A stretch of 64,000 nt of DNA from Hydractinia symbiolongicarpus. Taxonomy: Eukaryota > Cnidaria > Hydrozoa > Anthoathecata > Hydractiniidae. A program made the translations under genes and the position numbers. A model generated the notes under the pieces. It did not search any database. It was not told the origin of the DNA and saw only the letters and a program-made list of their open reading frames with translations. The DNA lies in the NCBI RefSeq assembly GCF_029227915.1, contig NC_079884.1, positions 19,466,001 through 19,530,000 of the forward strand, written 5' to 3'. Within the stretch, counting starts at the first letter, position 1. Every line of letters begins with the position of its first letter. This document shows positions 13,570 to 64,000 of this stretch, in pieces.

Positions 13570-16500
13570 GCTTGAGCTAAAATGGAATGGCTTTAAAATG
13601 GCAGATTAACTATCAATTTTTCTAACCGCGTCAGAAACATGTATATCTTCAATTAAATCACAGAATGATATTTTATTGAAAAAAATGGTGACTTATAATG
13701 GAATCATACATACTTAAAGTAAATTCTACTGGCCCTTAGATTACACACAATGCAAAATATTGGCAAATTATAATGATAAAAATAGTAACTTAAAGTGGAA
13801 TTATATATACTTAAAGTGGACTCTACTTCGCCTGTAGAAAACTTGATAATTCAGAATATTGACAAATCATAATAATTAAAAAAAAATTGACTTATAGTGG
13901 AATTATACATACTTAAAGTAAATTCTACTGGCCATTAGATTACACACAATGCAAAATATTGGCAAATCATAATGATATAAATAGTAACTTAAAGTGGAAT
14001 TATATATACTTAAAGTGGACTCTACTTCGCCTTTAGAACAAGTATTATTCTAAAATATTGACAACCCGTAATAATTAAAAATTGTTTTGGCTTATAATGG
14101 AATTATACATGGTTAAAATGGATTCTACTGCGCTCTTATATTACACACAATGCAAAATAATGGCAAATCATAATGATAAAAATAGTAACTTAAAGTGGAA
14201 TTAGATATACTTATAGTGGACTCTACTTTGCCTGTAGAAAACTTGATAATTCAAAATATTGACAATTCATAATAATTAAAAAAATATTGACTTATAGTGG
14301 AATTATACATACTTAAAGTGAACTGTAATTCGCCTTTAGAACAAATATTATTCTAAAATAATAACAACTCATAATAATTAAAAATTGTTTTGGCTTATAA
14401 TGGAATTATACATGGTTAAAATGGATTCTACTGCGCTCTTATATTACACACAATGCAAAATAATGGCAAATCATAATGATAAAAATAGTAACTTAAAGTG
14501 GAATTAGATATACTTATAGTGGACTCTACTTTGCCTGTAGAAAACTTGATAATTCAAAATATTGACAATTCATAATAATTAAAAAAATATTGACTTATAG
14601 TGGAATTATACATACTTAAAGTGAACTGTAATTCGCCTTTAGAACAAATATTATTCTAAAATAATAACAACTCATAATAATTAAAAATTGTTTTGGCTTA
14701 TAATGGAATTATACATGGTTAAAATGGATTCTACTGCGCTCTTATATTACACAAAATGAAAAATAATGGCAAATCATAATGATGAAAATAGTAACTTAAA
14801 GTGGAATTATATTTACTTAAAGTGAACTCTACTTCGCCTTTAGAACAAATATTATTCTAAAATATTGACAACCCGTAATAATTAAAAATTGTTTTGGCTT
14901 ATAATGGAATTATACATGGTTAAAATGGATTCTACTGCGCTCTTATATTACACACAATGCAAAATAATGGCAAATCATAATGATAAAAATAGTAACTTAA
15001 AGTGGAATTAGATATACTTAAAGTGGACTCTACTTCGCCTGTAGAAAACTTGATAATTCAAAATATTGACAATTCATAATAATTAAAAAAATATTGACTT
15101 ATAGCGGAATTATACATACTTAAAGTGAACTCTAATTCGCCTTTAGAACAAATATTATTCTAAAATAATAACAACTCATAATAATTAAAAATTGTTTTGG
15201 CTTATAATGGAATTATACATGGTTAAAATGGATTCTACTGCGCTCTTATATTACACAAAATGAAAAATAATGGCAAATCATAATGATGAAAATAGTAACT
15301 TAAAGTGGAATTATATTTACTTAAAGTGAACTCTACTTCGCCTGTAGAAAACTTGTTAATTCAAAATATTGACAATTCATAATAATTAAAAAAAAATTGA
15401 CTTATAGTGGAATTATACATACTTAAAGTGGACTAGACTTCGCCTTTAGAACAAATATTATTCTAAAATAATAACAACTCATAATAATTAAAAATTGTTT
15501 TGGCTTATAATGGAATTATACATGGTTAAAATGGATTCTACTGCGCTCTTATATTACACACAATGCAAAATAATGGCAAATCATAATGATAACAATAGTA
15601 ACTTAAAGTGGAATTATATATACTTAAAGTGGACTCTACTTCGCCTGTAGAAAACTTGATAATTCAAAATATTGACAATTCATAATAATTAAAAAAATAT
15701 TGACTTATAGTGGAATTATACATACTTAAAGTGGACTCTAATTCGCCTTTAGAACAAATATTATTCTAAAATAATAACAACTCATAATAATTAAAAATTG
15801 TTTTGGCTTATAATGGAATTATACATGGTTAAAATGGATTCTACTGCGCTCTTATATTACACACAATGAAAAATAATGGCAAATCATAATGATAAAAATA
15901 GTAACTTAAAGTGGAATTATATATACTTAAAGTGAACTCTACTTCGCCTGTAGAAAACTTGTTTATTCAAAATATTGACAATTCATAATAATTAAAAAAA
16001 TTGACTTATAGTGGAATTATACATACTTAAAGTAAATTCTACTGGCCATTAGATTACACACAATGCAAAATATTGGCAAATTATAATGATAAAAGTAGTA
16101 ACTTAAAGTGGAATTATACATACTTAAAGTGGACTCTACTTCGCCTTTAGAACAAATATTATTCTATAATATTGACAACTCATAATAATTAAAAATTGTT
16201 CTGGCTTATAGTGGAATTATACATGGTTAAAATGGATTCTACTGCGCTCTTCCATTACACACAATGAAAAGTAGTGTCAAATCATGATGATAAAAAATAG
16301 TAGCTTAAAGTGGAATTATATATACTTAAAGTGGACTATACTTTGCATTTAGAACGCATAATAATTCAAAATACTAACAACTCATAATAGTTAAAAATAT
16401 ATTGTCTTATAGTGTAATTATACATGGTTAAAATGGATTCTACTGCGCCCTTAGATTACACACAATGGAAAATAGTGGCAAATCATAATAATAAAAAATA

Positions 16501-16650
16501 GCAACTTAAGGTGGAATTATACATGCTTAAAAAGGACTCCACTTAGCCTTTAGAAAACTTGATAATTCAAAATATTGACAAATCATAATAATTAAAAAAA
16601 AATTGACTTATAGTGGAATTATACATACTTAAAATGGACTCTTCTTTGCC
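13570..16650. repeat. Higher-order tandem array (101-bp monomer, 303-bp unit)
   Basis: The landmark CTTATAATGGAATTATACAT recurs at 14091, 14394, 14697, 14898, 15201, 15504 and 15807. Spacing is 303 bases except one of 201. Each 303-bp unit holds three related ~101-bp monomers, and each monomer has a pair of CTTA(A/T)A(G/A)TGGA motifs (for example ACTTAAAGTGGAATTATA then ACTTAAAGTGGACTCTACT). Copies at the edges are more diverged. The 201-bp gap is a unit that lost one monomer. No open frame runs through it. The motif is the one found at element ends near 9.33 and 37.2-37.5 kb, so the array may derive from amplified subterminal repeats of a transposon (inference). Confidence 0.9.
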
Positions 16651-19600
16651 CTTAAAACACAGTGTATATAAATTTTAAGTTTGGTTTTGCTTTTACTAGC
16701 CCATATGATGTTAGTATAAAGTTGAAAAAAATTATAATCTATAGCTTCTTAATCTAGGAAGAAGGTAGTAGAAACTATGACAATACTTCTGATATGACAA
16801 CTTACTTTCTATGTGATTAGAGTTTGTGTTATACTAACTTCGTTGATTATGTGGCCAGTTCACACACACTTTAGACTTTAGAGAAGAAGTTTATAATAAT
16901 TATTTATGGTTACTAAGTTTTCCTTTTTTAAAGAGTTATATTGTATCAATAGGCCTAAAGTAACACGGGCTACGTGATGTCACAGAGTTATGAAATAATG
17001 TTTAAAAAAATGCACACACTCGCTAACATATTGTGAAATTTTCTAAGACACAATGAAATTATCACTTTTAAGTATGTTTTTATGTTCAACAAAGGTGAAT
17101 GTATCAGCCTCACCGTAACGTTAATGAGGGAATCAGTTCAAGAAGAACGGCTTTTATTACTTTGTTTCAATAAACAAACATTTTACCGATCCACATATCA
17201 CTACGAACAAGCGATTGCAAATGCAGACTACCACAAAAACTTACCAAAAAGAACATTAAAAGAAAAATTTTTTTTAAAGGTTTTCAATCCTCCGTACAGT
17301 ATGAATTTTAAATCATTTTTCCAGGAATTATAATCAACATAAAGCTGCAGGCCGTGTACAGAAGGAGAAATCGATTTTTTAGCACCCAATTTCACATAGT
17401 CAAAAAACACCCTGGCTGCCATGCAAGAAGAAAGCATGCGATCGAACAAATTAATTTTGATTATGTGAATGGTCCAAGGCCTGCGTACTATAATGTAATG
17501 TAATCTGACATAGATCTCTATCATGATTATTATTAACATAATAACAGCCATCATGAATTGTCCACGCAAGTGGATAAATTGCCCGAGAGCCAGCGCATGC
17601 GCACACTTTATTTCCTCCGTGGAATCCCGTGTGTACTCATCAATATCATCAATAGACATGAAAAAGAAAATTATCGAAGCTAAAATATAGTACAAAAAAA
17701 ATTGAAGAGAAGTCTAAAAAACGATAAATTCGATACGAAAGCGAATTATATAACGAAATTAATGAAATGAAATTTAATAATCGACGTGTAAAACACAAGA
17801 GGGTGTTACAAAAATGATAAAAAATCATTAAAGGAAATGAACAAAATAATTTGTGTTCTTTCTACACCTTCTCTCTACCTTCTACTTGATAATTTTTCGT
17901 GATCGAATTATGAAGTGAAGTAGGATGCTGGGTATTTCTCAGCTTTGGAAATACAGTCATCTAGTTCTTCAAATTATTAAATAAGTCATAAATTCGATAT
18001 ATCATTACACTACCGGGCGCAGAAAATCATGCCTGTGTCAGTTGTCTTCGATTGTTGAAACAAAAATTTCATGAAAGTGAAACACAATATAAGTTCTTTT
18101 TTCTGTTTTCTGTTCGTTAAGCCATCTAAAAGCATGTTAAAACTCTTCCAACTGCCGTATTTTATCTCAGAATATAGTTAGACAGCAAGTATTAAGCATC
18201 AGCCACTAAAAACAAAATAAATACTTAATCATTGCCTCTATGCACAAAAACAATGTGAAGGATTTTTCATGTTAAACTAAGAAATCGGTCTCTAAATAAT
18301 GCATGTCTTACCACTTACTACCTGCAATTGAAACAAAAAAAAGATGTTTAACAGCCTATGTTACTTTGTTTTATTCCTATAAATAATACGATAGATTAAG
18401 ATTTCTTGATTAAATCGCGCTTTTTTCCTCCTAGGCATGATTTAAAGTTAAAGGCCGCCATAAATTAATGGTTTGGGTTCAGGTCTGCAATTTTAATCCA
18501 GCTTCCTAAGCGGCGCATGTAAACAAAAATGGTAAGCTGAGTAAATCTTTCGCGCCAACCGTTAGCACAAACGCTAAAACAACATGTTAATAATATATAA
18601 TAAAGATAATAAATTAGCAACCAAATTAAGCACACTCAAACACAAAAATGTGGTGAGATTTGTCTGTCCAAGAACAAATGGCTTTTTGTTTGAACTTTGT
18701 CATACTTGAGATCTATGGCGATATTGTACACAACTTAGCTATATAGGAGATCTGCTATGCTAACAAGCATTATATATGTGTTAAAAAAACAATTGAACTA
18801 TATTCGCCAAGGCGCAATTGGATTACAATATTTGCATTCGATAAACATTGTATAGCTAGCTAGCTCATCAAGATTTTTAACCGTCAAATTTATTAGTCAC
18901 ATGGAAGAAATGATGGTAAAAGCTGCTGATTTTGATCTAACAAACCATTATCACAACATCAACAGGAAATAATCTAAAAGGAATGACATTGGCATACAGC
19001 ACCAGAATTGTGTATAAGGTGAAGTGAGAAAAGCCTTCAGTAAAAACTCTTGTGGTATCTCAACATATAAAGTGCTGTCACACCTACAATCTGCTTTGCT
19101 TGGTGTCAGATGTCCCGCCCAGTTCTCAGTGATGTGATGGTTTGTTGTACCTAGCTAGCTGCTACCTATTGAAAAAAATGGCCTGATATAGCTGCATTTA
19201 ATAGTGCCCTTATGCTGACTTTGATCAGTCTTCTTGTTTTGATATGGTTACAAAACCATGGAGTGTTTGTCAAGATGAGAGACAGTTATGGTTGTCAGAG
19301 GTAAATATAGCTAAATTTTTGTTTTAGTCTGGATTACCTAATATATAAATGAAGCTAGGTATATTTTGATTTTTATGTCCTAACACAGCCTTTCTAATTC
19401 TCGTCGGCACTCTGCAATAGCTGAAGCGAATGCTGACATGTTAACAAAAAGTGTTGATTCGCGTTGGCAAATTTTTGCGGACATGGTTTATCTTAAAGTT
19501 GGATATAACTTGAACTTACAAAAGTTTTGCTCTCATTTTCTCTTAATATAAATGCCGTTCATGTATATATTACCAATGTGTAGCACAAGTTTGCCGACGT

Positions 19601-30700: not shown

Positions 30701-33700
30701 AGTCATTCTTATTTTGCTTTTGATGTTCGCACAATGATTTTGATGTGCCCATTCGCGAAATATGTAACTTTTTTAAAAACGAAAGTTGAATTCCGCGAAA
30801 AAAAACACTATATTTGTCTCTCTCTGAACTTTATTTCAGAAATCAATTACGGATGATTCGGGTTTACTGCTGGAGAGTGACCAGAGCGTTTACAATTCAG
30901 ATATCTCTGAGGTGTTTGAAGCCATTGCATTACCGGATAGCATACCAAATCAAAGCACGCCACGCAATGATAGATCAAAACAAAAATCCATAAAAAATCA
31001 GAAAAAGGTATTTTTAAATCGTTGTATTTTTTAGCCACGCAAAGTTATTAGCAAAGTCAGCCTAGATCAATCTAATTTGTAGTTTAAATCAATGCTAAAA
31101 AATAAAAACCCGAAAACGTTGGAAATATACTAGCTGATTCACGAAAAAAGTTCATTTGAAAAATTTAGAGTAATTTCAACTTACTTTTGAAATAGAAAGG
31201 TGAAAATATCTTTTTGTTTATTCAGAATGTTTTCCGAATTTCGTAATAAAGAAGATAATCGTGGAACCAACGCTTTAACTTTATTTGAAATGTCTCTCTC
31301 GAATAATTTCCATAAAACTGTTCCAATTCCTTTTAGAAAGCCAATCATCATCCCAATAGAACCTGTTTTATTTGTGGCAAAGTGTTTAGCCGGCTTACGA
31401 GGCATATCACGAAATCTCATAAAGATGATGATGTTGTCAAGAATGCTTTGCTAATGCCGAAAAAAGAAAAGGTTAAATGTTTTCGTAACTTTAAGAAGAT
31501 GGGTATCCATCAGGAAAATATGAAAGAGATAAACGCTAGGTCTCCAAAGTTTCAAAGGGAGAAAAAAGTACGAAAATGTAAGGATCTTGTTATGTGTTCC
31601 CTCTGCAACGGTTTCTATGCTAAATCTTTCATAACAAGACATATGAAAGACTGTGGTAACGATTCTTGTTCCTCCAAAGTTGGTGTTCCATTGCCTTTAC
31701 TTGGACAGGAATTTGAAAAATTAAAAGCACAATTCAAAGAAGATATCCTGAGTCGTATGAGAAACGATCCAATCGGGATAACAGCTAAATCCGATGAAAT
31801 CATTTTAATGATTGGGTCAAGATTATATGAAAAAGTTAAAAGGCGACAAGACAAAAAGCATGAAATTCAGAATACGGTCCGAACTGATATGCGACGGTTG
31901 TCTCATCTGTACACGCATTTCCAATCAAAAAATGTAAATGCTTTTCATGGCAATGCATCAGATATGTTCATCAGAACAAATTTCGATGCGTTAAAAGACG
32001 CAATAGAGCTGTACACGGATTCTAATGCTGAACAGCAAAAGGCAGGATTGAAAGCGGCGTTGTACTATCTTATATCTGGTAGTGCTAAGAAATGTGTGGG
32101 ACACTTCTTAGCACAGGATAAAGATGACGTTGCCAAACAGTTTTCTGATTTCTTGGTTTTGCTTGCTTTGCGGAAAGATGAAGTTTTTGCAGACGCGACG
32201 TACGACTTGAATCTTCGGCGTAATGTAAAAAGCAAAAAACCAGCACAACTCCCAATCGAACAAGACATAAAGATCATCAGAGAGCATATTGTCAGCACGG
32301 TTAAGCGGTTTGAAGAGGATCCCTTTATAATCTGGGATAGCCACACATTTATAAAACTTCGAGATTGTACTTGCACGCGACTCACGTTATTTAACGGGAG
32401 ACGTGGAGGTGAACCTGCCCGTCTTTTATTGCGTGAATGGCAAGAAGCAGAGGAGGGGACGTGGCTTGATAGGCAAAGATTTGATGTCGTTGATAATGAT
32501 GGAGATTTAAAAATAACCTATCAAACTGGCAAGGGAGTGAATCATCTTGTGCCAGTGCTCATCCCAAAGGACATTTTCTTCGCCATGAGAACGCTAGCTG
32601 ACAAAGAGATTAGACGAAATGTTGGTATTTCTGAAACCAATCCTTACTTATTTCCAAGTACCCAAAATTCGGAAAGACACTTTTCAGGTTGGCACAGCCT
32701 TACAAACGTTTGCGAATATCTCCCTATCAAAGACAAATCGAGAATAACAGGTACAACTAATAGGCATAGACTCAGCACTCTCATGGCCGCTATCGATTTG
32801 ACAGATGCAGAAAGGGAATTAGTGTATAAACATTTTGGACATAGTCGTGATATGAACGAAAACGTATACCAAGCACCCGCTGCACATCAACAGTTAAGTT
32901 CAACGGGGAAGCATTTACTAAATATTGACACAGGTATGTGATACTTTTGGCCTTTATTACGTTACCCTAACGTTTGTTCCTGCTCTGCTAACGCCAATAC
33001 CTACTGACTATTTATGTATCTGGAGGCAAGAACAAGTTTTTTTTGATTTTTAGGTTTGTTTAAATAAGATTTTGCATAATTTGTATAAGGTTCCGATTAA
33101 GAAAAACTGCTGGAGATAAAAATGTGATTTTTATCTGATTGTAGCTTGCACTGTATAAAAGATCTGTGCTATTGAATATAGCATATATTAGAAACAGTGA
33201 AATATTTGTACTTTATTGCATGCAAAGTTCGCGGCATTTAAATTTCGTGGTTCAAGCAAATATGTGTATTTCGCAGCATTTTAATTTTGCAGTAAGTAAG
33301 AAAAAGAAACGTTTTTCCGCTTCCAAGGTCCAAGTTTCGTAAATGTGCTGCTATTGAAGGAAAATTAACGACAAGGCTCGGACCTCGTGATTGCGAAGCA
33401 AACTTCAGGCAACAGGCCATATTTTTGTAAAAAAAATTAATTTTTTATGCATTTAAGTTTCGCGATTGTTCTGAAGATCTATTTTTCGCGAAATTTTCAC
33501 GCCACAAATTTTTTAGGTAACAAAGTAGTATGCGTTTTGTTAACGTTTTTCTGTTATACTGTTTCATTCATATATTTGTAGCAAACTAAAACACACACAC
33601 CCTTAAAGAATCCTCTTCCTAATATTAACAGGGTCCCTTGATGTTAGAGAGAAAACAAAAGATAAAAAGACGGATCTACCAGTTGCCAGTTTGTCGGTTA

Positions 33701-42713: not shown

Positions 42714-43618
42714 CTTTGCCTCTTTTCCTTTTTGGATACTTTCTAGCAGCCAAAACACTTTTCTCAGTAACAGCAACCTTCCCAACTTTTAGCAAACTAG
42801 GTTCAGCATCCAATGATTGAGGTTTCATGGTTAAAGGACTTAATTACGGTTTCATGGTCGAAGGAACACCACGTGACTCATCAGGAAAATTCAATTTTGG
42901 ATGGTTTTTCATCAATCCAGATGTTATCTCTTGCAGACGTGGTGCAGTTGTTTTAAGCTGTTGAGACCCAGGGGGAGCTTGGTATACCTCTTCATTCATA
43001 TGTTTTGAATGACCAAAATGTTTAAATATCAAGTCCTTTTCCTTTTCTGATAACTGCAACTTTGCAAGAAGCGACGCAACACGATGCCTGTTCTTTGTAG
43101 CATTTATAGCTCCTTTTAAAGATAACCGCTTCAGAATCTCGTTGATACAGTGCCAACCACTTGCATGACTACGACTATTCTGTGTACTCGCAAATATATA
43201 CGGGCTATCCTTATGCACACCAGCATCTTGTCGTATCTTATCGTCTGTTAAGTACTTCATTGCTGGGATGGTTTCTGAAGGAAAAATTACAGGCACAAGA
43301 TGGTCAGCTCCTTTTCCTGTTTGATATGTAATCAACATAGACTCCATATCTTTGGGTAAATTTATGGGCTTGCGTAGATTCCTGTTCCTCCTATATGTGA
43401 TGTCATAGTAAGCATCGCCGAAAATGTCATTTTCAAATAGTTTGAGCACTTTTAAAAATTCAATTACTTTTTTTGAACCTTCGTCATTGCATTCCACCAA
43501 GAAATGACCTATTAATATCTGGCCAGCCGATTTCAATAGATTCAGTATTCCTATCTTTAGGCCACTTTTTTGACCAGTAATATATAAAATAAATCTGATA
43601 GCCTTGTTCTATCCACAC
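42714..43618 (-). pseudogene. Recombinase exon of gene B, internal deletion
   Basis: The frame matches gene A from SGLKIGILNLLKSAGQ and GHFLVECNDEGSKKVIEFL through RRNRNLRKPINLP, then jumps straight to LITYQTGKGADHLVP. About 85 residues present in gene A, including the first catalytic Arg (GRRGGE), are missing in frame. TKNRHRVASL, KHFGHS and NEEVYQAP remain. After a TAA at 42844 the frame resumes (LTMKPQSLDAEPSLLKVGKV) to a donor at 42713; the bases around the stop look like a short tandem duplication (STMKP, then LTMKP). Without the first Arg it should not be an active recombinase. Confidence 0.75.
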
Positions 43619-54831: not shown

Positions 54832-55038
54832 CAGTGGAATCCCCCTAAAGCGGACACCCTATAAAGCGGACAGCCCTCTAAAGCGGACAAAAATTTTTGC
54901 ACCGGCAGAATTTAGGTCAAACTCTCATAAAAAAATCTCTATAAAGCGGACGATTATAAAGCGGACACTCTATAAAGCGGACAAAAATCTTTGCACCAAA
55001 TGACAGTTTCCCTTATAAACACTCCCTATAAAGCGGAC
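54832..55038 (+). repeat. HIRAN-side end: seven TAAAGCGGAC motifs
   Basis: Seven copies of (C/A)TAAAGCGGAC lie here, all in the same orientation, the first being part of the TIR. Two are extended to AAAGCGGACAAAAAT(T/C)TTTGCACC-type composites (about 54880 and 54974). They are probable transposase-binding sites (inference). Confidence 0.85.
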
Positions 55039-55090
55039 AATGGAAAAATAACGAGATGAAATGTCACTTTTTCTTAAAATTTAAAACATT

Positions 55091-55669
55091 TTACTTAGTA
55101 CATCTTTGAGTTTTGTTATTTACCGAGTCCAACACTTTCCTTATATTTTTCTCGGCCCACTCAACTGCCTTTTCAACACCAATTAATTGGTACTGGGCAG
55201 GAATTTCTAGTCCGTAGCCAGCACCACGAATCACTCGCTTCCCAGTCACTTTACATCCGATGGTACAGTTAGGAAGCGACATGAATTTGTTGAATAGTTT
55301 GCTAAGGTTTTTAGGGACGTGCCCAACTATTTTATCGTCATCTGTAACAGCTACAGCAAACTTGTCATGTTCGTTATCTTCTTCCGCTTTTAAACAAAAA
55401 TTCTCTTCTCCGACTTTTGGGCTCCATATGTCCATGTAAGCATGGTATCCACGGATAAACGAGTCGAAGCGATATTCTTTCTGTTTTATAAGGATAATCT
55501 CAATCTGTTGGTCAATGTTTTTGAGAAGCATCTCATTTAGTTGAACGTTCGACATATCTGTGTTCTCTTCAGCTTCTTTAACTTTAAAATAGCATTCGAA
55601 TCGTGAAGACATTGCAGCGTAAAATTTTAAACTGGAAAGAATTTCGAATTTTGAATTTCTAATGCACAT
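55091..55669 (-). CDS. HIRAN-domain protein of transposon 1
   Basis: The 192-codon frame starts at 55669; a second Met (MSSRFECYF, 55612) is an equally plausible start and would leave 62 bases for a shared promoter. The helix DQQIEIILIKQKEYRF precedes a HIRAN domain: IRGYHAYMDIWSPKVGE, then FCLKAEEDNEHDKFAVAV, KIVGHVPKNLSKLFNKFM and CKVTGKRVIRG. The (N/D)xxDxxAVAV and VGH(V/L)PK motifs match HIRAN of HLTF/Rad5-type proteins, which bind 3'-OH single-strand ends and aid fork reversal. No helicase or nuclease is attached. It is transcribed away from the transposase, five bases between ATGs. I infer an accessory factor acting on element ends or replication forks. Confidence 0.82.
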   Translation of the reverse strand: MCIRNSKFEILSSLKFYAAMSSRFECYFKVKEAEENTDMSNVQLNEMLLKNIDQQIEIILIKQKEYRFDSFIRGYHAYMDIWSPKVGEENFCLKAEEDNEHDKFAVAVTDDDKIVGHVPKNLSKLFNKFMSLPNCTIGCKVTGKRVIRGAGYGLEIPAQYQLIGVEKAVEWAEKNIRKVLDSVNNKTQRCTK

Positions 55670-55674
55670 TCAAC

Positions 55675-57282
55675 ATGGCAATGTCGAAGCAGCAGCTTGC
55701 TGGTAAACTAGCGAAGAAAACTTTATCATTAGATGATAAGATCAAGTTTTTGGATTTCGCCAAAAAAAATCCAGAACTTGGATGTAGAAAACTAGCAGAC
55801 ATTTACAAGATTGGAAAGACAGCCGCAGCAAATATTTTAAGAGACGAAAAGAAAATTCGTGAACAACATGAAATTTTTCGTGAGAAAACAAAAAAACGTA
55901 ACCGCCATGGCAAGTATCACAAGATAAATGAGATCTTATTCGAATGGTACAAAAGATGTTGCGCTTCTAACATCTACCCTAATGGTGTAATGCTTAAAGA
56001 GGAGGCGTTGGAAATTAAGGAAAAACTTCAGAACAGCGATTTTGATAATTTCTCCGCCTCTGACGGTTGGTTGGATCGTTGGAAAACAACATATTCCGTC
56101 AAAGAACGTCGTATTGTTGGTGAAGCTGGTGACGTTTCTACAGAAACGGTTACTTCCTGGATGGAGAGGATCAAAGAATTGGTTGAAGGTTATTCACTAG
56201 AAAATATTTGGAACATGGACGAGTCTGGCTGTTTTTTTAAAGCTCTACGGGCCAAAGGGTTAGTGGAAAAAGGAAAACAAGCAAAAGGTGGGAAAAAGTC
56301 AAAGCTTAGATTAACTGTCGCTTTTTTTGTAAATGCAGCTGGGGAAAAGATCGACCAGCCTGTTGTTATCTGGAAGAGTAAAGTCCCGCGTTGTTTTAAA
56401 AAATTGAAAGATCCATCGCGTCCAGCTAACGTTCACTACTTTTCAAATCCTAAATCTTGGATGACATCTCAAGTAATGGAAACTGTACTGGCACGTTTTA
56501 ACAGAAAACTTTTATTTGAGGACAGAAAAGTTATTCTTTTTCTGGACAACGCCACCTGTCATCCGGAGTCAATGATAGGCCAGTTTTCACAAATCAAAAT
56601 CATTTTCTTACCGAAGAATACAACTTCAAGGCTTCAACCACTCGATGCGGGGATCATCCAAAACTTCAAGGTGAAGTACAGAAAAAGACTGGTCAAATAC
56701 GTGCTTGCAAGGATCCAGGAGAATAAATCTGCAACTGAAATTATCAAGAGCGTAGACATACTTATGGCTATTCAATGGGTTCAAGATGCGTGGAAAGAAG
56801 TAACCAACTTGACCATCAAAAATTGTTTCGAGAAATGTGGCGTAGTTCAAGGAGAAAGTGAATTGATGGAAGATCAAGAAGATGACTTGGAATTTGAAGC
56901 TCTGGTGAAGGAATTAACTGAAGATATGTCTGCTGCAGAATACATCGATTTTGACGCCGATGTTCCAGCTTCGGAGCCAAGAATTAACGAATTAGAAATA
57001 AATTGGCGACATAAAATCCGAGAAGCTAGCATTAACGCAATTGAAAATCCAGAGATGGCATGTCAGGTCGAAGAGATTTCCGAGGATGATGATGAGAGTG
57101 AAGACGTGGTTGAAGAAGAAATGCTTGGTTTCACCGAGCTAATCACTATGCTTGATAAAATTAAGCGATCTACTATTTTTGATGATACATGCCAAGAAAT
57201 GTTGTCAACCATTACGAAAAAGATTGAGGAACTTCAGCTTCAAAATAGAAAACAATCCTCAATCAAAGATTATTTCAAATAG
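55675..57282 (+). CDS. Tigger/pogo-like transposase 1 (DD32D)
   Basis: 535 residues, close to the usual pogo/Tigger length. Residues ~13-60 form a Psq-type HTH (SLDDKIKFLDFAKKNPELGC...), ~75-140 a CENP-B-type HTH (HKINEILFEWYKRCC... ending GWLDRWK). The DDE catalytic core has D182 (WNMDESG), D291 (FLDNATCHPE) and D324 (QPLDAGIIQ), with 32 residues between the last two. An acidic tail (EISEDDDESEDVVEEE) follows. The last nine residues, QSSIKDYFK, fit the PCNA-interacting PIP box (QxxIxxYF), a feature known from the Drosophila pogo transposase. All catalytic residues are present. It should cut at the TIRs and reinsert at TA. I chose the first ATG, though MSK two codons later is possible. Confidence 0.93.
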   Translation: MAMSKQQLAGKLAKKTLSLDDKIKFLDFAKKNPELGCRKLADIYKIGKTAAANILRDEKKIREQHEIFREKTKKRNRHGKYHKINEILFEWYKRCCASNIYPNGVMLKEEALEIKEKLQNSDFDNFSASDGWLDRWKTTYSVKERRIVGEAGDVSTETVTSWMERIKELVEGYSLENIWNMDESGCFFKALRAKGLVEKGKQAKGGKKSKLRLTVAFFVNAAGEKIDQPVVIWKSKVPRCFKKLKDPSRPANVHYFSNPKSWMTSQVMETVLARFNRKLLFEDRKVILFLDNATCHPESMIGQFSQIKIIFLPKNTTSRLQPLDAGIIQNFKVKYRKRLVKYVLARIQENKSATEIIKSVDILMAIQWVQDAWKEVTNLTIKNCFEKCGVVQGESELMEDQEDDLEFEALVKELTEDMSAAEYIDFDADVPASEPRINELEINWRHKIREASINAIENPEMACQVEEISEDDDESEDVVEEEMLGFTELITMLDKIKRSTIFDDTCQEMLSTITKKIEELQLQNRKQSSIKDYFK

Positions 57283-57578
57283 GGAGAAAAACGTGTATTG
57301 AAAGACCTATAAGATAAATGAAATATATCTTCGTAATATAACTTGGTTTCTTAGTTTATAACCTTAGCAACACTTAAAGGTTGGTTGCAACACCGACAAA
57401 TTTGAGCTGCTAAACTTACTTTACACAGCCAACTTGGGTTCTTTGCTCGATAAGCTAAATCTATTGATGTTGCCGTCTACCCTACTGTTGCAAGTCACCC
57501 CATGATACCCGCCAGTACTACAAAAAAAGCTTTTTTGGTCAAAATTAGGTCTAAAACTAATTTTTTGGTCAACTTCCT

Positions 57579-57651
57579 ATAAAGCGGACATCCCTCTAAA
57601 GCGGACACTTTTTTTTGCACCAATGGTGTCCGCTTTAGAGGGATTCCACTG
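57579..57651. repeat. Transposase-side end: three TAAAGCGGAC motifs
   Basis: Two direct copies (about 57579 and 57596, the second extended to a TTTTGCACC composite) and one terminal inverted copy (57629-57641) that is part of the TIR. Confidence 0.85.
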
Positions 57652-57882
57652 TATTTTTTTTTTTAATAGCGAGATGCATTGTGTAAATGTATTGATAAGC
57701 TATTCCCTTAAGTAGTAGTGTGACGTGATTATATGGTGGGGATCTTTCGCGAAGTTTTATAAAACATTGCGCGAGAATGTATTGTTGATTCAATTACTTA
57801 AAAAAAAAAATTCCAGCGCGTTTAATCTAAGAAACATTTGAGAAGCATGGTTCACAACTATTAAATGCCGCTTTTCGTTTAT

Positions 57883-57988
57883 AAACTTTTAAAATGCGAT
57901 CTAAAAAAACATTTCTATCGCCTCTTTTCGATTTTAAACTTTTAAAATACGATCTAAAAAAGCATTTCTATCGCCGCTATTCGTTTTA
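57883..57988 (+). repeat. Tandem duplication, 53-bp unit
   Basis: AAACTTTTAAAATGCGATCT and the next ~33 bases recur 53 bases later. Confidence 0.85.
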
Positions 57989-58951
57989 TTGCCGCTTTTC
58001 GTTTTTATGTGTTTTAATTTTACTACAAAAGCTCTTGCATAGATTATGTATCAACATTAGGATAAGGATGAAAAAGTTACTGTGGGACATGGGTTTTAAA
58101 CCTTAAAAATTTCCAGGGAGAAATTTGAAAACTAATGAATGACAAAATCCAAAAAGTTTATCTTCAAATTTTTAATTTTGTTAATGTAAAAGTAATCCAC
58201 ATGAAAAAAGTTTCTGATATTTTTTATGAAGAAATCTTCCATATTAGCCATTATACATTTGCCCTAGAGTGATTAATAAATAAGGTCAGGCTTCTATTTT
58301 CAGAACTGCTATTTACATTTAACATCAAGGCATCCAAAACAGCTTCATTTAGGAAAGGTGTCACAATTCGTTTTGCTATGATTGAACACAAATTTTGCTC
58401 AGTAAAAGCTTTAAGAAATTACCTGTTATTTCGGGGGGCTAAGGCTGGCCCATTGTTCGTTTTATCAATGGGGTTTTATTACCCGAATTGTAAAAGGCTA
58501 ATTTATAGGCACTTGCATGTAGTTTTCTTTTTCATGTCTATTTGTTAAGCCTGTTATGGCGTGTTGAATTATCTCGTCGTAGTTCTTGTTAAAAATATTG
58601 CCTCATGGATAATGAATTTTCATTTGGGGAATTTGGGGGTGCTGGGCTGCCCTGGGCAGCCACAAAGTGTAGAGATGTGCGTGTACCCCTGGAAGAGTAT
58701 GGTGAATTCAGTACAGGTGCGAGGAGATGAACGACGGTGCACCACGCGAGCAGGACAGATGACTGGGGAAATAACAGCAGGGGCATGCGGCGCTGACAGT
58801 CAGAGGTGGTGCACCAAGAGGTTAATAGCAGGTGTGAAATGCAAAAGAAGCTAGAGCTCATAAAGAGTAGGTTCTTGTGAGGTATGATAGAGGAAATGGA
58901 ATCACAGGAGAGGAGCTCCGGATGTGATTGAGAGATTAGTTAAGCCAGAAA

Positions 58952-59038
58952 ACACTACTAGGAGAAGAGCTCCGGATGTAGTGGAGAAGAGCGAACACTA
59001 CTAGGAGAAGAGCTCCGGATGTAGTGGAGAAGAGCGAA
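58952..59038 (+). repeat. Tandem duplication, 43-bp unit
   Basis: ACACTACTAGGAGAAGAGCT and the following bases occur twice, 43 bases apart. A partial third copy (GAGGAGCTCCGGATGTGATTG) is just upstream near 58911. Confidence 0.85.
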
Positions 59039-60709
59039 TTTATTGGGAACACGCACGTGAGCTTGAGACAATATCTTCTCTTCAGCCTAGCATCCTCACC
59101 CGATTCCGCCAAATTATCCTCAGTATATTCTTACAAAATTGAAATAAATTTTCTACTCCAAGGTTGTGTTTTTATTGGGAACTACAGCAATTAAATAGAG
59201 ATTTTTAGCATAATTCTAAGCTTTTGTTATAAAATTTTTTACTTTTTTCCTGTATAAAAATAGACATCTGCTTTTTTGATTAATATGCAGTTCTGTAATA
59301 ACGGTTCAGGGGCCAAAAGACCCTGGGGACACGAGGATGACTGCTATGTATCAACCAGATTTTCAAGAGATACAAGTTGAATAATATGTGAAAAAGGTTT
59401 TCTCACTTTATTCATCAACCTCGCTCCCACCATTGACCTGTCTTTTAAACTGTCACCAAAATCAAAACTGGTGTGAAATAATTTTCAGACACCAAGCATG
59501 CTTACAGAAGACTGTTTGGTTTATCAACTTGATCCATGCTGTCCGTTGCTTTTTTTTCCTTAGTAAGTTGAAAAAATAAAATCCCCTTTTTTAGTGATCA
59601 AGACAGTGCAATATTGCATAAGATGCCATTTGTATAACTAATAATAATAATGATAGACAGCACAGTGAAACATAAAAATGTAATAAATCTTAAGTCTCCA
59701 CAAAAAACAGTCTAGTACCGAAGCTTAGTATGCCTATGCTAGGAGGTGCTTTAAATTTATTACGTCAGAGCTTCACTTTTTATGCAAAAAAGGAATGTTC
59801 AAAAATAATAGACAATAAGGGTTTAAAAATTTTGCTGACGTCAGCAATGGCCCATCAAAACCCCAAATTTCTTTTTTAGGAATTTGGTATTCATGTTGCC
59901 TTCATCGTATAAATCTTGAAACACTGATCAAGAAAATGTATAGGATCATGTACTTTTGAGAAACGGTTGCAGAGATATTAGGGTTTAAAGGTTTTTTGAT
60001 GACGTCATCAATCCGTCCATTCTGAAACAGATTTGGGGACCCAAGTTTTGTAAAATGACCCAAATTGGTCCTAGGTGTCCCTAGGTACCCACGCGGTGAA
60101 AAATCATTGACATCACCACCTTGTTTCCAAGTTATTTGGCCTCAAAGTTTTAGGTGCACAATCAAGTGGAGCACTTACAATAATATACAGCTTTGGCTAA
60201 AAGAAAAAAAATTTCCCATGAAATTTAAAAATTACGCTGAAAATCTGTGTTGAGCTTCCATTAAGCTACAAAAGCCATGCAAGATTGACTTTACTGCTAA
60301 TAAAAAGGCTCTCACATTAAAACATATCAAACTTCACACCAAGTTAATTACAAAACCTTTAACTTTTGTTTTAGAACACTAGCTTGGCCATAAGAAAAAA
60401 TACAATAATTTGCAGACCAGGCACCTTGTCACACTTCCAGTTCTTAGCCACTGTGCAAAGTTATCATTTTGTACAAAGATGGACAATATTACACGGTGTG
60501 AGTTCTATAGGATGGTTCCCAATATTCATAAAACCAACATTTTACAACTACAAATGTTTGACTGTAGATAGCATTTAATATTTATATACACTAAAATTCT
60601 AATAACAACTATGCCTCATTTCTATGCTATTCTGGTCTGTAGAATAAAATTACCACCCCTAAACTAACCTTAATTGAGAACACCCTAGCTATATTTTCTA
60701 TATAGCTAG

Positions 60710-61160
<451 letters not shown>

Positions 61161-61356
61161 TCGTTTTCCCGCCAGATTTTCAACTTAACCTTAATGGGAT
61201 GGACTTTTCTTAAGTAATTGAGGCATTGTGGTTCAGTTGAGCGTGTAAACACAAAGAATTTTTACTTTTTGAAGAAAGAATAAATTTGAACAAATTGTTA
61301 ACAGGTTTTAAAATATGAAAGTTATAAAGAAAATGTATTTAGTAAATACAAGGAGT

Positions 61357-62931
61357 TCAACTCTTAAAAAAATCTTTAATGCTACATTGTTTTTTACTAT
61401 CGATGTAGTGTTTTTGACATGTACGTGTTATCATGTTTAACTGCTTTCTGATTTCAAGACCATTCTCGTCAAACAAAGACCATCTTTCCAACAATTCTAA
61501 GGCCTCTTCCAACTCTGACTGCTTTGGCTTCTTCGGGGGGATGTCATGTGCCTCAATTTCATCATCATCGTCATCTTCAAGATTCGGCGCGTTTTGATCT
61601 TTGTCCTCATTAAGTACGATTTCCACGATTTCCTCATCAGTCAATTCAATTGATTTACTCGTGCATACCTCAAAATCAATATCCACAAAATCATCTGCGT
61701 TAAAGATGTCGCCGTCAACTTCTCTTTTTTTCAACTCGCTTATGCTGTCAGAAAGAGATTTAAATGGGTCATCAGCATCATTGAGACTCGTGATCTGTGC
61801 TTCTTTTGAGATGCCTGCCTTCTTAAAGCAGTTTTTAATGGTGTCTTTTGAAACAGCGTCCCATGATTTGACCAAGATTTGCATCCCTTCAAGAATGTTA
61901 ATTTTAGGGACCTCTTTACCGCCGTCAATGAACTTTATTTGACGTTTCACAAGATTTGACCGGTAATATGCCTTTAATGCTCGGATTACACCTTGATCCA
62001 TGGGCTGGGTCTTAGACGTTGTATTTGGTGGTAGAAAAACTAATTCTACTGCTTTAAGACCAGTGACTTCTGGATGAGCTGGGCAATTGTCAATTATCAA
62101 GACAATCTTTCGACCCGCAGTTTCAAATTTAACATCGAGTTTTTTCACATAATCGGTAAAGATTTCAGAATCCATCCAGGCCTTCTTTTGAGCTTTGTAC
62201 TGACAGGGAAGACTTCTGACTCCTTTGAAACAGCGCGGTGTAACCGATTTTCCGATAACGAACATGGGCAAATTTTCACCTAGGGCATTTCCTGCTGCAA
62301 GTCCTGTTAAACGAACTTTGCTGAACTTTCCACCAGCACATCTTTCACCTTTGGCATGATAGGTATTTGTTGGAAGCATCTGGTAGAACAAGCCGAATTC
62401 ATCAGCATTGAAAATGTCTTGTAAATCATAGCGTGACAAAATGGTTGGCAGGTGTGTTTCTTCCCAGCTTGCTGTCATCCCTGGTGTACAAGACTTTTCC
62501 TCTCCAGAAATAATTCTGTAAATGATGTTTTGTCTGTACTTCCATCTGTCTAGCCAGCCTTCTGAAGCTTTAAAATCAGGTTCGTTGAATTGCTTTGCAA
62601 AATCCAATGCTTTTTCTCGAATGATTTGACTACTAATCGGCACAGTTCTTTCACGAGCGTTAACGAACCACTTGTAAACTGCTTTATCAATGTTATCGTA
62701 TTTTCCGGAAGAAAGCTTTTGTCTTTCAACTCCATACTGGCCTGATTCATACTTGGTAAAAATGTCACTTTTATTCTTAACCCAGTATGAAAGTGTGTTA
62801 GGTGGGACATCATACTTTTTAGCAATAGACTTTTTAGTTGTTCTTTCTTTTTCAAGCTTTTTCAAAGCAAGATATTTTTCTTTGATCGTCAGAACAGTTT
62901 TCTTCCTTGACGTTGTCTGAGCGGTTGCCAT
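61357..62931 (-). CDS. Tigger/pogo-like transposase 2 (DD30D)
   Basis: 524 residues. There is a Psq-like HTH at ~13-55 (TIKEKYLALKKLEKERTTKK, SIAKKYDVPPNTLSYW), a CENP-B-type HTH at ~75-135 (DKAVYKWFVNARE... GWLDRWKYR), and a DDE core with D177 (FNADEFG), D281 (LIIDNCPAHPE) and D312 (TQPMDQGVIRAL), with 30 residues between the last two. An acidic tail (NLEDDDDDEIEAHD) follows. The C-terminus QCSIKDFFKS again fits a PIP box (QxxIxxFF). The frame is intact and all catalytic acids are present, so it may be active. It resembles transposase 1 in plan and C-terminus rather than in detailed sequence. Confidence 0.93.
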   Translation of the reverse strand: MATAQTTSRKKTVLTIKEKYLALKKLEKERTTKKSIAKKYDVPPNTLSYWVKNKSDIFTKYESGQYGVERQKLSSGKYDNIDKAVYKWFVNARERTVPISSQIIREKALDFAKQFNEPDFKASEGWLDRWKYRQNIIYRIISGEEKSCTPGMTASWEETHLPTILSRYDLQDIFNADEFGLFYQMLPTNTYHAKGERCAGGKFSKVRLTGLAAGNALGENLPMFVIGKSVTPRCFKGVRSLPCQYKAQKKAWMDSEIFTDYVKKLDVKFETAGRKIVLIIDNCPAHPEVTGLKAVELVFLPPNTTSKTQPMDQGVIRALKAYYRSNLVKRQIKFIDGGKEVPKINILEGMQILVKSWDAVSKDTIKNCFKKAGISKEAQITSLNDADDPFKSLSDSISELKKREVDGDIFNADDFVDIDFEVCTSKSIELTDEEIVEIVLNEDKDQNAPNLEDDDDDEIEAHDIPPKKPKQSELEEALELLERWSLFDENGLEIRKQLNMITRTCQKHYIDSKKQCSIKDFFKS

Positions 62932-62997
62932 CTTTAATGTGGATTTGAAGAGCCTTTAAAAAGTTTGTTTACATCCACCCACTTGTTTTTTAATCGA

Positions 62998-63090
62998 GCT
63001 TTCGAAACGTTCGAAAATTAGATGAAACGTTTGAAAATCAAAGGAAACGTTCAAATTTTGAATGATCCTTTTAAAACGTTCGAATGTTAT
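62998..63090. promoter_or_regulatory. Four GAAACGTTCGAAA-type repeats in the divergent promoter region
   Basis: Near-copies at about 63004 (GAAACGTTCGAAAATTA), 63023 (GAAACGTTTGAAAATCA), 63043 (GAAACGTTCAAATTTTG) and 63073 (AAAACGTTCGAATG), spaced ~20 bases (about two helical turns). They lie between the two divergent start codons and share the TTCGAA core with the terminal motifs. They are possible regulator or transposase-binding sites (inference). Confidence 0.55.
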
Positions 63091-63147
63091 AAAACGAAAC
63101 GAAACAACACAACAACAAAGCAGTCACACCACAATTAGGACGAAGAA

Positions 63148-63601
63148 GTGAAAATTACAATGGATCTTGTTTCAATGATAATCAACGAAACACAGCCGAT
63201 AGAAATCATTCTTATCAAGTATTATGAGAGTAACTCAACCGTTATGGGATATCATGAGTATCAAAAGAAATGGAACGCTGTTATTGGTGAAGTCCTAGAA
63301 GCTAAAATGGAACCAACAAACGACATAGACAAATATGCAGTGGCGGTCTGCAAAAAAGGAGATATTGTTGGTCATTTGCCTAAAGGAAAAACAGGAAAAT
63401 TTGCCAAAACGATATTTTACTTTCTGAAGTAGAGAGATGTTGATGATTTGCAAGATGTTGTGTACTTGCAAAGTAAAAGTGACAGGGAAAAGAACTAACT
63501 TTGGAGATGAGAAGGGATTGAGGATCCCCTGTTTGCTTCAATTCTCTGGACCGAAGGAGAATATTGAACTTTTGAAGAAATTGCTTGAAGAGTGTAAATA
63601 G
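63148..63601 (+). pseudogene. HIRAN-domain protein of transposon 2, broken
   Basis: The frame starts at an ATG in ACAATGGATC, usable for initiation. QPIEIILIKYYESNSTVMGY, HEYQKKWNAVIGE, DIDKYAVAV and DIVGHLPKGKTGKFAKTIF match the HIRAN protein of transposon 1 (QQIEIILIKQKEY, GYHAYMDIW, KFAVAV, VGHVPK). The frame meets a TAG at 63430-63432. The remaining domain continues one frame over from about 63467 (CKVKVTGKRTNFGDEKGLRI to the stop at 63599-63601), matching CKVTGKR of transposon 1. So there is a stop plus a one-base shift, unless an unusual splice removes them. The transposase next to it is intact. Confidence 0.78.
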
Positions 63602-63691
63602 CCATAAATATTGAAACCTGATTTTTTGAAGAAAAAAAGTGTTTTAATCGCAGAAAATCAATGTTCTCACTCGACGATCTCCCAATAAGAA

Positions 63692-63904
63692 AAATTCGAA
63701 TAACTGAGGGTTACTTAGCCTATAATTGGCCCCAAGGGGAATAAAAATCACTTCGAATAACCGAATTATTCGAATAACTGAAGTTCGAATAACCGAGAGT
63801 GTTTTTGCCTGAGTTGGGTAAGCAGATCCAAGGGGAACGCCATCTCACTTCGAATAACCGAATTATTCGAATAAGTGCAGGTTCGAATAACCGGGAGTCT
63901 ACTG
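63692..63904 (+). repeat. HIRAN-side end: seven TTCGAATAACYG motifs
   Basis: Seven same-orientation copies (about 63695, 63752, 63769, 63784, 63849, 63866, 63882), the last forming the TIR. Two are preceded by a CCAAGGGGAA...CACTTCG composite (about 63731 and 63829). Confidence 0.85.
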
Positions 63905-63906
63905 TA

Positions 63907-64000
63907 TATATATATACAACGCTACAGCCTCTGCTGCCATCTATTTCCTCAGTCTGTTATCTTTTGCCAACTTTTCTCTACACTGGTATTCATTACAGTT
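63907..64000. other. Non-coding right flank
   Basis: A short TA run, then unique-looking sequence. No gene. Confidence 0.5.

Follow-up and report, generated by a model that had tools for sequence, protein, structure and literature searches.

We found that a 64,000-nt stretch of Hydractinia symbiolongicarpus DNA (NC_079884.1; referred to as the window, whose positions are used below) carries two pogo/Tigger-type DNA transposons, designated E1 and E2, each of which combines a DDE transposase gene with a divergent small gene encoding a HIRAN domain. We are highly confident that these elements belong to a conserved lineage of two-gene pogo-type transposons, as had been proposed from the letters of the window alone (the sequence-only reading), and this proposal was borne out by further copies in the genome, by a predicted HIRAN fold, and by co-divergence of the two genes. 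Besides, the pairing proved not to be confined to the two Tigger elements originally described: it recurs in several lineages, one of which has a dissimilar transposase and CCTTAAGG terminal inverted repeats (TIRs). What is new here is the occurrence of pogo-type transposons with a conserved second gene; the pogo/Tigger kind itself is known.

E1 consists of the following features:

54832..57651, element E1, two-gene transposon of the pogo/Tigger type, 2820 bp, with TA at either side
54832..54858, plus strand, left TIR, with TATAAAGCGGACA-type subterminal repeats after it (TIR scan)
55091..55669, minus strand, HIRAN gene, 192 amino acids (Pfam HIRAN, 31.0 bits with a cut-off of 24.7, and AlphaFold2 [AF2] model)
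55175..55474, minus strand, HIRAN domain core, approximately residues 66 to 165, including N99 and D102 (alignment and model)
55675..57282, plus strand, transposase, 535 amino acids, DDE_1 and HTH_Tnp_Tc5, DD32D (Pfam; spacing counted from the sequence)
57253..57276, plus strand, PCNA-interacting protein (PIP)-box-like motif QSSIKDYF at the transposase C terminus (motif scan)
57625..57651, minus strand, right TIR (TIR scan)

The TIRs of E1 are 27 nt long and identical at 26 of 27 positions (CAGTGGAATCCC[C/T]CTAAAGCGGACACC), and the two genes lie head-to-head, with 5 bp between the start codon of the HIRAN gene and that of the transposase gene. The sole match of the E1 transposase in the PDB at an E value of ≤1 was the CENP-B DNA-binding domain. 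At 55229-55231, residue 147 of the HIRAN protein is isoleucine in the window copy and asparagine in all 18 other copies compared.

We searched the genome (480.9 Mb, 76 contigs) with the E1 HIRAN protein and scored 150 of 757 candidate matches, so that the counts from this search are lower bounds. At least 25 E1 HIRAN copies span residues 1 (or 2) to 192 at 97 to 100% identity, and 24 of these 25 are free of stop codons. Among 20 E1 loci that were fetched (L001 to L020, window copy included), 19 have the exact left TIR after TA, with 18 distinct flanks (L002 and L004 are the same); L009 aligned from the same base without the exact letters of the left TIR, and its right TIR was read. The 19 copies other than that in the window showed 99.3 to 99.8% identity in the alignment. 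Since the copies are nearly identical and stand at many differing flanks, E1 moved recently. Transposase sequence adjoins the HIRAN gene in all 20 loci, being incomplete (gaps or an early end) in L006, L008, L009, and L018.

The second element, E2, is built from the same two genes, as follows:

61080..63904, element E2, second pogo/Tigger-type transposon with two genes, 2825 bp, inside a TA-repeat tract
61080..61102, plus strand, left TIR (TIR scan)
61357..62931, minus strand, transposase, 524 amino acids, CENP-B_N, HTH_Tnp_Tc5, and DDE_1, DD30D (Pfam; spacing counted)
61366..61389, minus strand, PIP-box-like motif QCSIKDFF at the transposase C terminus (motif scan)
63148..63432, plus strand, first part of the HIRAN gene, with the first ATG at 63160 and a stop at 63430-63432 (open reading frame [ORF], Pfam, and alignment)
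63435..63471, plus strand, short tandem duplication at the break of the HIRAN frame (repeat scan)
63461..63601, plus strand, conserved C-terminal HIRAN block CKV..TGKR..IPC, in a different frame from the first part (translation)
63882..63904, minus strand, right TIR (TIR scan)

The coordinates and TIRs that had been given for both elements held, as did the TA flanks of E1. To the left of E2 lies a (TA)n tract that is approximately 370 bp long (about 185 units; 60711-61079), and the right flank (63905-63918) starts TA-rich as well; target-site duplication of E2 is therefore uninformative, a TA duplication being undecidable within (TA)n. The E2 TIRs are perfect over 23 nt (CAGTAGACTCCCGGTTATTCGAA) and have only the CAGT start in common with those of E1, in agreement with the earlier view that the two TIR sequences are unrelated. 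Both transposases are intact, as had been stated, and they scored 132.5 bits (E1) and 131.2 bits (E2) against DDE_1 in Pfam. They share 30% identity over 470 amino acids, and the HIRAN proteins share 43% over 81 amino acids (E value of 8e-16 in a single comparison). The head-to-head HIRAN ORF reported for each element is intact in E1 but not in E2, where the gene looks broken because the CKV..TGKR..IPC block (63461-63598) is out of frame past the stop and accompanied by the tandem duplication. The E2 HIRAN ORF (63148-63432) scored 23.6 bits, slightly below the Pfam cut-off. Such a frame-broken ORF, taken alone, might be a product of chance or misassembly, with HIRAN-like ORFs or element boundaries that are spurious; the stop-free, near-full-length E1 copies across the genome, the left TIR found letter for letter in 19 of the 20 E1 loci, and the fold and profile evidence given below make the likelihood of this practically negligible.

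To cover a range of 34 to 73% identity, 20 divergent loci were hand-picked from the 150 E1 HIRAN matches (L042 coincides with L021, and the two count as one locus). Direct transposase similarity was found beside or around the HIRAN sequence in 14 of the 20. A 72-amino-acid ORF is present in L030, L033, and L036, and in L032 the same ORF is found 3' of transposase sequence, with both on one strand; we take it to have the look of a Tigger C terminus. L026 contains merely a short N-terminal transposase remnant, as judged by eye. Strong TA-flanked TIR pairs surround the HIRAN sequence in 11 loci (L021, L022, L023, L025 to L028, L035, L038, L039, and L040) and weak ones in two (L029 and L030, both starting CAGTGG), and the TIR scan, which was run without a shuffled control, gave no accepted pair in L024, L031, L032, L033, L034, L036, and L037. 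AT-rich or non-CAGT matches with scores of 10 to 12 in L031, L032, and L037 were set aside because matches that weak occur by chance; the pairs in L029 and L030 are of equal strength. Further elements in which one TIR pair encloses the two genes together, which the sequence-only reading had asked after, were thus found among the E1 loci and among the divergent loci.

The families represented by these loci differ in structure. L021, L022, L023, and L025 to L028 are deletion copies (1.0 to 2.0 kb) of a sister family of E1, designated E1b, with the TIR CAGTGGAATC[C/T]CGTTAAAGCGGACACC. L038, L039, and L040 are relatives of E2 with the TIRs CAGTCGACGCTCGTTATCTCGAAC and CAGTA[G/C]AGTCTCCATAACTCGAAC, and all three have the HIRAN sequence in antisense orientation within the gene for the transposase, following residue 133 by E2 numbering. 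This position is flanked by GT..AG, like an intron, in L038 and L040, and the L039 transposase is without residues 134 to 258 or so. L024 is of another type, with a degenerate transposase and a HIRAN relative (L024b) head-to-head.

A more distant lineage is represented by L043, a TA-flanked element of 3477 bp with perfect 41-nt TIRs (CCTTAAGGGAACTTATTTTGGCGGG..). Its transposase (540 amino acids) scored 40.2 bits against DDE_1 and 14.5 bits against HTH_Tnp_Tc5 (below the cut-off of 22.2), and is 17 to 23% identical to the E1 and E2 types; head-to-head with it lies a HIRAN gene with a 222-amino-acid frame (32.4 bits). At least 22 Pfam HIRAN matches, L043 included, have this frame length and score. 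The related element L044 (2105 bp, TA-flanked) has an intact HIRAN gene and a mostly deleted transposase. L045, in which the two genes are again head-to-head, is 44% (HIRAN) and 43% (transposase) identical to L043, with a DDE_1 score of 23.1 bits, above the cut-off; no TIR pair was found in the short stretch fetched. In the Pfam HIRAN comparison, L045 (30.4 bits) and L044 (26.4 bits) were above the cut-off of 24.7 and L040 (21.7 bits) was below it. Presumably, L043, L044, and L045 as well as L024b resemble the Passer/POGK transposases.

We further characterized the small ORFs by profile and structure comparison. A phmmer search of the PDB with the E1 HIRAN sequence alone gave nothing at an E value of ≤10. 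A profile built from 12 transposon HIRANs, with the host gene excluded, matched the HIRAN domain of HLTF (five distinct sequences; E values from 7.6e-6 to 1.1e-5), and the next match had an E value of 0.29. The AF2 models of the E1 HIRAN (mean predicted local distance difference test [pLDDT] score of 69.6; approximately 75 to 93 in the core) and of the L043 HIRAN (mean pLDDT of 69.8) both matched HLTF HIRAN best among solved structures in the PDB, with E values of 2.1e-6 and 5.7e-7 and template modeling (TM) scores of 0.76 (by target) and 0.70, respectively. This accords with the assignment of the small ORF to HIRAN in the sequence-only reading. HIRAN is the sole domain above the cut-off in the small ORFs scanned with Pfam, with no SNF2 or RING. 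In the genome, Pfam HIRAN gave at least 91 matches, all above the cut-off (150 of 251 candidates scored), the top one being an HLTF-like host gene. Scans of prokaryote genome contigs and of viral contigs returned no relatives, so that nothing in them points to a prokaryotic or viral origin; a BFVD fold search gave phage and giant-virus proteins, some of them named HIRAN, as distant fold matches.

Only three residues (N99, D102, and G116 in E1 numbering) are invariant in 10 aligned HIRANs, host sequence included. N99 and D102 align to N91 and D94 of HLTF, and the glycine is that of VGH; HLTF numbering was fixed from the statements on N90/N91 and Y93 in PMC4666394 (here and below, papers given by PMC number are cited from parts of their texts). 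Among the pocket mutants of HLTF HIRAN, only the N90/N91 double mutant fully impaired function (PMC4666394). As judged by this alignment, the 3'-end pocket of the HLTF type is partly kept and partly changed in the transposon HIRANs.

We compared the histories of the two genes by the NG86 method, using the proportions of nonsynonymous (pN) and synonymous (pS) differences, and by trees and identities; pieces were joined for the co-divergence test, and degenerate elements were included. Between E1 and L021, the HIRAN gene gave a pN of 0.193 and a pS of 0.864 (saturated), and between E1 and L024, the transposase gave a pN of 0.121 and a pS of 0.666. Among L043, L044, and L045, pN/pS was 0.41 to 0.54 for HIRAN pairs (0.41 for L043 and L044), and it was 0.43 to 0.44 for the transposase pieces of L043 and L045. 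Low pN relative to pS between families indicates that both genes have been maintained as proteins. Across nine elements, transposase and HIRAN identities are correlated (Spearman coefficient of 0.82, reached by 3 of 20,000 label permutations), much of the correlation stemming from the grouping into few clades. The co-evolution that the sequence-only reading had proposed to test with trees is upheld in the identities, and the trees concur on two clades ({E1, E1b} and {E2, L038, L040, L021b}); both have a star in the 8-row transposase tree, and none of the 9 branches is starred in the weakly supported HIRAN tree (12 rows). From these comparisons, the pairing of transposase and HIRAN appears to be old, the two proteins having diverged in step to about 20% identity.

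The transposon HIRANs are 20 to 63% identical among themselves and 12 to 26% identical to the HIRAN of the HLTF-like host gene, which argues against recent capture from host HLTF. The sequence-only reading had named trees with independent gains of the HIRAN genes from hosts as a refuting result; in that respect, several old captures may have occurred, since a single HIRAN origin is unproven given the weak support of the HIRAN tree. A gene captured long ago could also be a passenger, that is, a host-type gene carried beside the TIR without function for the element. Deletions in these elements are internal, and deleted copies hence retain HIRAN, and the E2 HIRAN is broken beside an intact transposase, as would be expected of a passenger. 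Yet purifying selection between families, co-divergence with the transposase, a divergent orientation that persists even in elements with HIRAN within the gene for the transposase, and the presence of HIRAN in transposase lineages at about 20% identity all argue against it, and we regard a passenger as very improbable. Selection on HIRAN-bearing deletion copies to retain the gene in cis was also considered and is rejected for now, because pN is about equal to or greater than pS within the E1b copies, with few changes.

These results suggest that the elements bring their own DNA-end-handling factor. Enzymes of the Tc1/mariner type excise by cutting the two strands at staggered positions, so that short single-stranded tails with a 3'-OH remain. 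The transposase of these elements would do likewise, and the HIRAN protein would bind the 3'-OH ends through the pocket it has in common with HLTF, hold or shield the cut ends, and perhaps stop host HLTF/Rad5 from stripping the post-cleavage complex; PIP-box-like motifs on either protein would bring the pair to PCNA, and so to DNA under replication or repair. Isolated HLTF HIRAN acts in vitro as a dominant negative against the removal of Cas9 from cut ends by HLTF, which for this action depends on its own HIRAN domain and on a 3' end being released (PMC11237066). By analogy, a stand-alone transposon HIRAN could keep HLTF off transposase-cut tails. The mechanistic part by itself (3'-OH binding, competition with HLTF, PCNA binding, and a need for HIRAN in transposition) is argued from such analogies, and we hold it tentatively, as a proposal somewhat more apt to fail than to stand. 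The help in excision, end protection, or fork-coupled transposition that the sequence-only reading ascribed to HIRAN is likewise only a suggested role. A two-gene pogo lineage with HIRAN holding or shielding the ends is our best explanation overall, at a little short of an even chance. It is possible, if rather doubtful, that the stand-alone HIRAN has been kept over deep divergence specifically as a decoy or shield against HLTF/Rad5 at cut 3'-OH ends; PIP boxes shuffled between the proteins of the element would then hold the pair on PCNA, in a conflict of transposon and host at the replication fork.

A different role would be that of a sequence-specific or general DNA-binding helper on the TIRs or subterminal repeats, like the Myb-like ORF1 of PIF/Harbinger, serving assembly, nuclear import, or autorepression. 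HIRAN is not known to read DNA sequence, and the most constant residues align to the 3'-end pocket (N91, D94, and the G of VGH of HLTF), which speaks against such a helper. It has on its side the subterminal repeats of both E1 and E2, the two-protein precedent of PIF/Harbinger (PMC2836001), and the existence of a structure of HLTF HIRAN with duplex DNA (6kcs, by its title); all in all, we consider it unlikely.

PIP-box-like motifs, defined as Qxx[ILM]xx[FY][FY] within 50 amino acids of a protein end, occur in five of eight transposases (at the C terminus in E1, E1b, E2, and L040, and at the N terminus in L024b) and in two of 12 HIRAN sequences (the C-terminal tails of L043 and L044), with shuffled sequences giving the motif at rates of 0.0015 to 0.0061 each. 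New among these is that in one lineage, in which the transposases sampled (L043 and L045) have no such motif, a PIP-like motif is predicted on the HIRAN protein. The HIRAN tails of L043, L044, and L045 end in EIINID, KIITIDSD, and ETIVID, respectively; two of these tails have a PIP-box-like motif ahead of that ending. We take these [IV]-rich ..ID tails to be like SUMO-interacting motifs (SIMs), and a PIP-like followed by a SIM-like motif is the arrangement of SUMO-PCNA receptors. That PIP boxes are universal in the gene pair was ruled out by their absence in L045 and in the degenerate L038.

These motifs bear on a further alternative, in which HIRAN is a targeting subunit that, together with PIP boxes, steers insertion or excision to forks, with their nascent 3'-OH ends and PCNA, rather than to the element's own ends; the element would then jump from replicated to unreplicated DNA and gain copies. 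In favor of this, PIP-like motifs are found on the transposase C terminus (E1, E1b, E2, L039, and L040), the transposase N terminus (L024b), or the HIRAN C terminus (L043 and L044), and the L043-type tails are presumably SIM-like. At forks, HLTF HIRAN has been suggested to locate the 3' ends of nascent strands (PMC11237066 and PMC4666394). On the other hand, L045 has no PIP motif, and POGO transposase is reported to bind PCNA and the PIP box to be conserved in Tigger (PMC5371812), with HIRAN unmentioned in the part of that paper cited, so that PIP boxes need not relate to HIRAN. We therefore regard fork targeting as improbable.

Several points weigh against the reading of the elements as a two-gene lineage with an end-shielding HIRAN protein. 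The loci come from one genome and were found HIRAN-first (by E1 HIRAN or Pfam HIRAN matches). No transposase remnant was seen in two of the 20 sampled divergent loci (L031 and L037), and none in the 4 kb fetched around the HIRAN ORF of L046 (273-824, 184 amino acids) or in L047, a truncated L043 copy; because of the latter two, the HIRANs here are not all shown to be transposon-borne. As to the pocket, the stacking tyrosines Y72 and Y93 of HLTF are retained neither in E1, which has A and H there, nor in E2, N90 is retained in two of nine transposon HIRAN rows, and the degenerate L024b HIRAN, outside the 10-sequence alignment, is without an equivalent of N91, so that end binding may be weakened or altered. 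HIRAN dN/dS was 1.0 to 4.5, with few changes, in decayed or deletion copies (L021-L022, L021-L025, and L030-L032), as in dead copies. This drift, together with a broken HIRAN beside an intact transposase in E2, implies that HIRAN is unnecessary in cis and perhaps dispensable. The PIP-box-like motif was absent from L038 (degenerate), from L021b (C terminus not recovered), from the L043 transposase, and from the L045 frames; the C-terminal motifs of the transposases are one inherited feature and not independent matches, and six-frame translations of the loci contain the bare motif frequently, so that only its position at protein ends counts.

L046 may represent a HIRAN family outside transposons. 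An open HIRAN frame of 214 amino acids in L034 (4645-5286) is 42% identical to E1; no TIRs were found around it, and the only transposase sequence next to it is a short fragment. It is possibly a gene kept by the host. Elsewhere in the window, a tandem array with 102- and 303-bp periods (13679-16654) contains TTATAGTGGAATTATA / TTAAAGTGGACTC repeats similar to the subterminal TATAAAGCGGACA repeats in E1, and is perhaps a satellite derived from the end of a pogo element. Two ORFs at 31382-32941 (plus strand) and 42844-43536 (minus strand) are similar by eye and have the look of tyrosine recombinases (YQTGKG..HLVPV; HFGHS..Y near the end); against Pfam Phage_integrase, the latter scored 15.0 bits, under the cut-off, and the former gave no match.

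If the proposed reading is true, a conserved second gene of the DNA-end-binding type would alter the understanding of pogo transposition, and HIRAN would be a partner for the PCNA-binding motif in pogo transposases, which is so far unexplained. Besides, a transposon-made HIRAN would be a possible natural inhibitor of HLTF. The question of whether cut-and-paste transposons guard their cut ends against fork remodellers is thereby made testable.

A HIRAN-bearing transposon is not described in the titles and abstract beginnings listed by searches of the HIRAN-transposon literature (few subscription papers covered, and Repbase outside the scope), and the word HIRAN is absent from the texts of PMC9219625, PMC7386202, and PMC7325037. 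E1 and E2 are like Tigger/pogoR elements in their TA target (as read for E1), CAGT-starting TIRs of ≤40 bp, and length of about 2.8 kb (PMC7386202 and PMC9219625), and in their DDE_1 and HTH_Tnp_Tc5 domains (CENP-B_N in E2) and PIP box (PMC5371812). Their DD32D and DD30D spacings fit the reported ranges of DD29-36D for Tigger and DD29-59D/E for pogoR (PMC7386202), and both have the DNA-binding domain expected of the group. Pogo elements are described with one or two ORFs encoding transposases (PMC7386202), and the superfamily has given rise to the CENP-B, JRK, POGZ, and TIGD genes (PMC9219625 and PMC7386202). The view of the sequence-only reading that pogo/Tigger elements are normally single-gene agrees with the description of complete Tigger with a single ORF (PMC9219625), whereas E1 and its relatives carry a divergently oriented HIRAN gene, which in three loci sits within that of the transposase. 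The L043/L044/L045 lineage resembles pogo in DDE_1 (L043 and L045) and in the TA flank (L043 and L044) but differs in its TIRs (CCTTAAGGGAA..), and, unlike in E1 and E2, the HIRAN of L043 and L044 itself bears a PIP-box-like motif. The transposon HIRANs share with HLTF/Rad5 the predicted fold and the pocket residues N91, D94, and the G of VGH, but they are small, stand-alone proteins without SNF2 or RING in which Y72 and Y93 are mostly changed. As in PIF/Harbinger, where both element-encoded proteins are needed (PMC2836001), the elements encode two proteins; the transposase superfamilies are unrelated, however, and the second protein is HIRAN and not ORF1. Ciliate Tec elements likewise combine a Tc1/mariner-type nature with additional ORFs, although the second ORF there is a site-specific recombinase (PMC7325037), whereas that of the Hydractinia elements encodes a divergent HIRAN.

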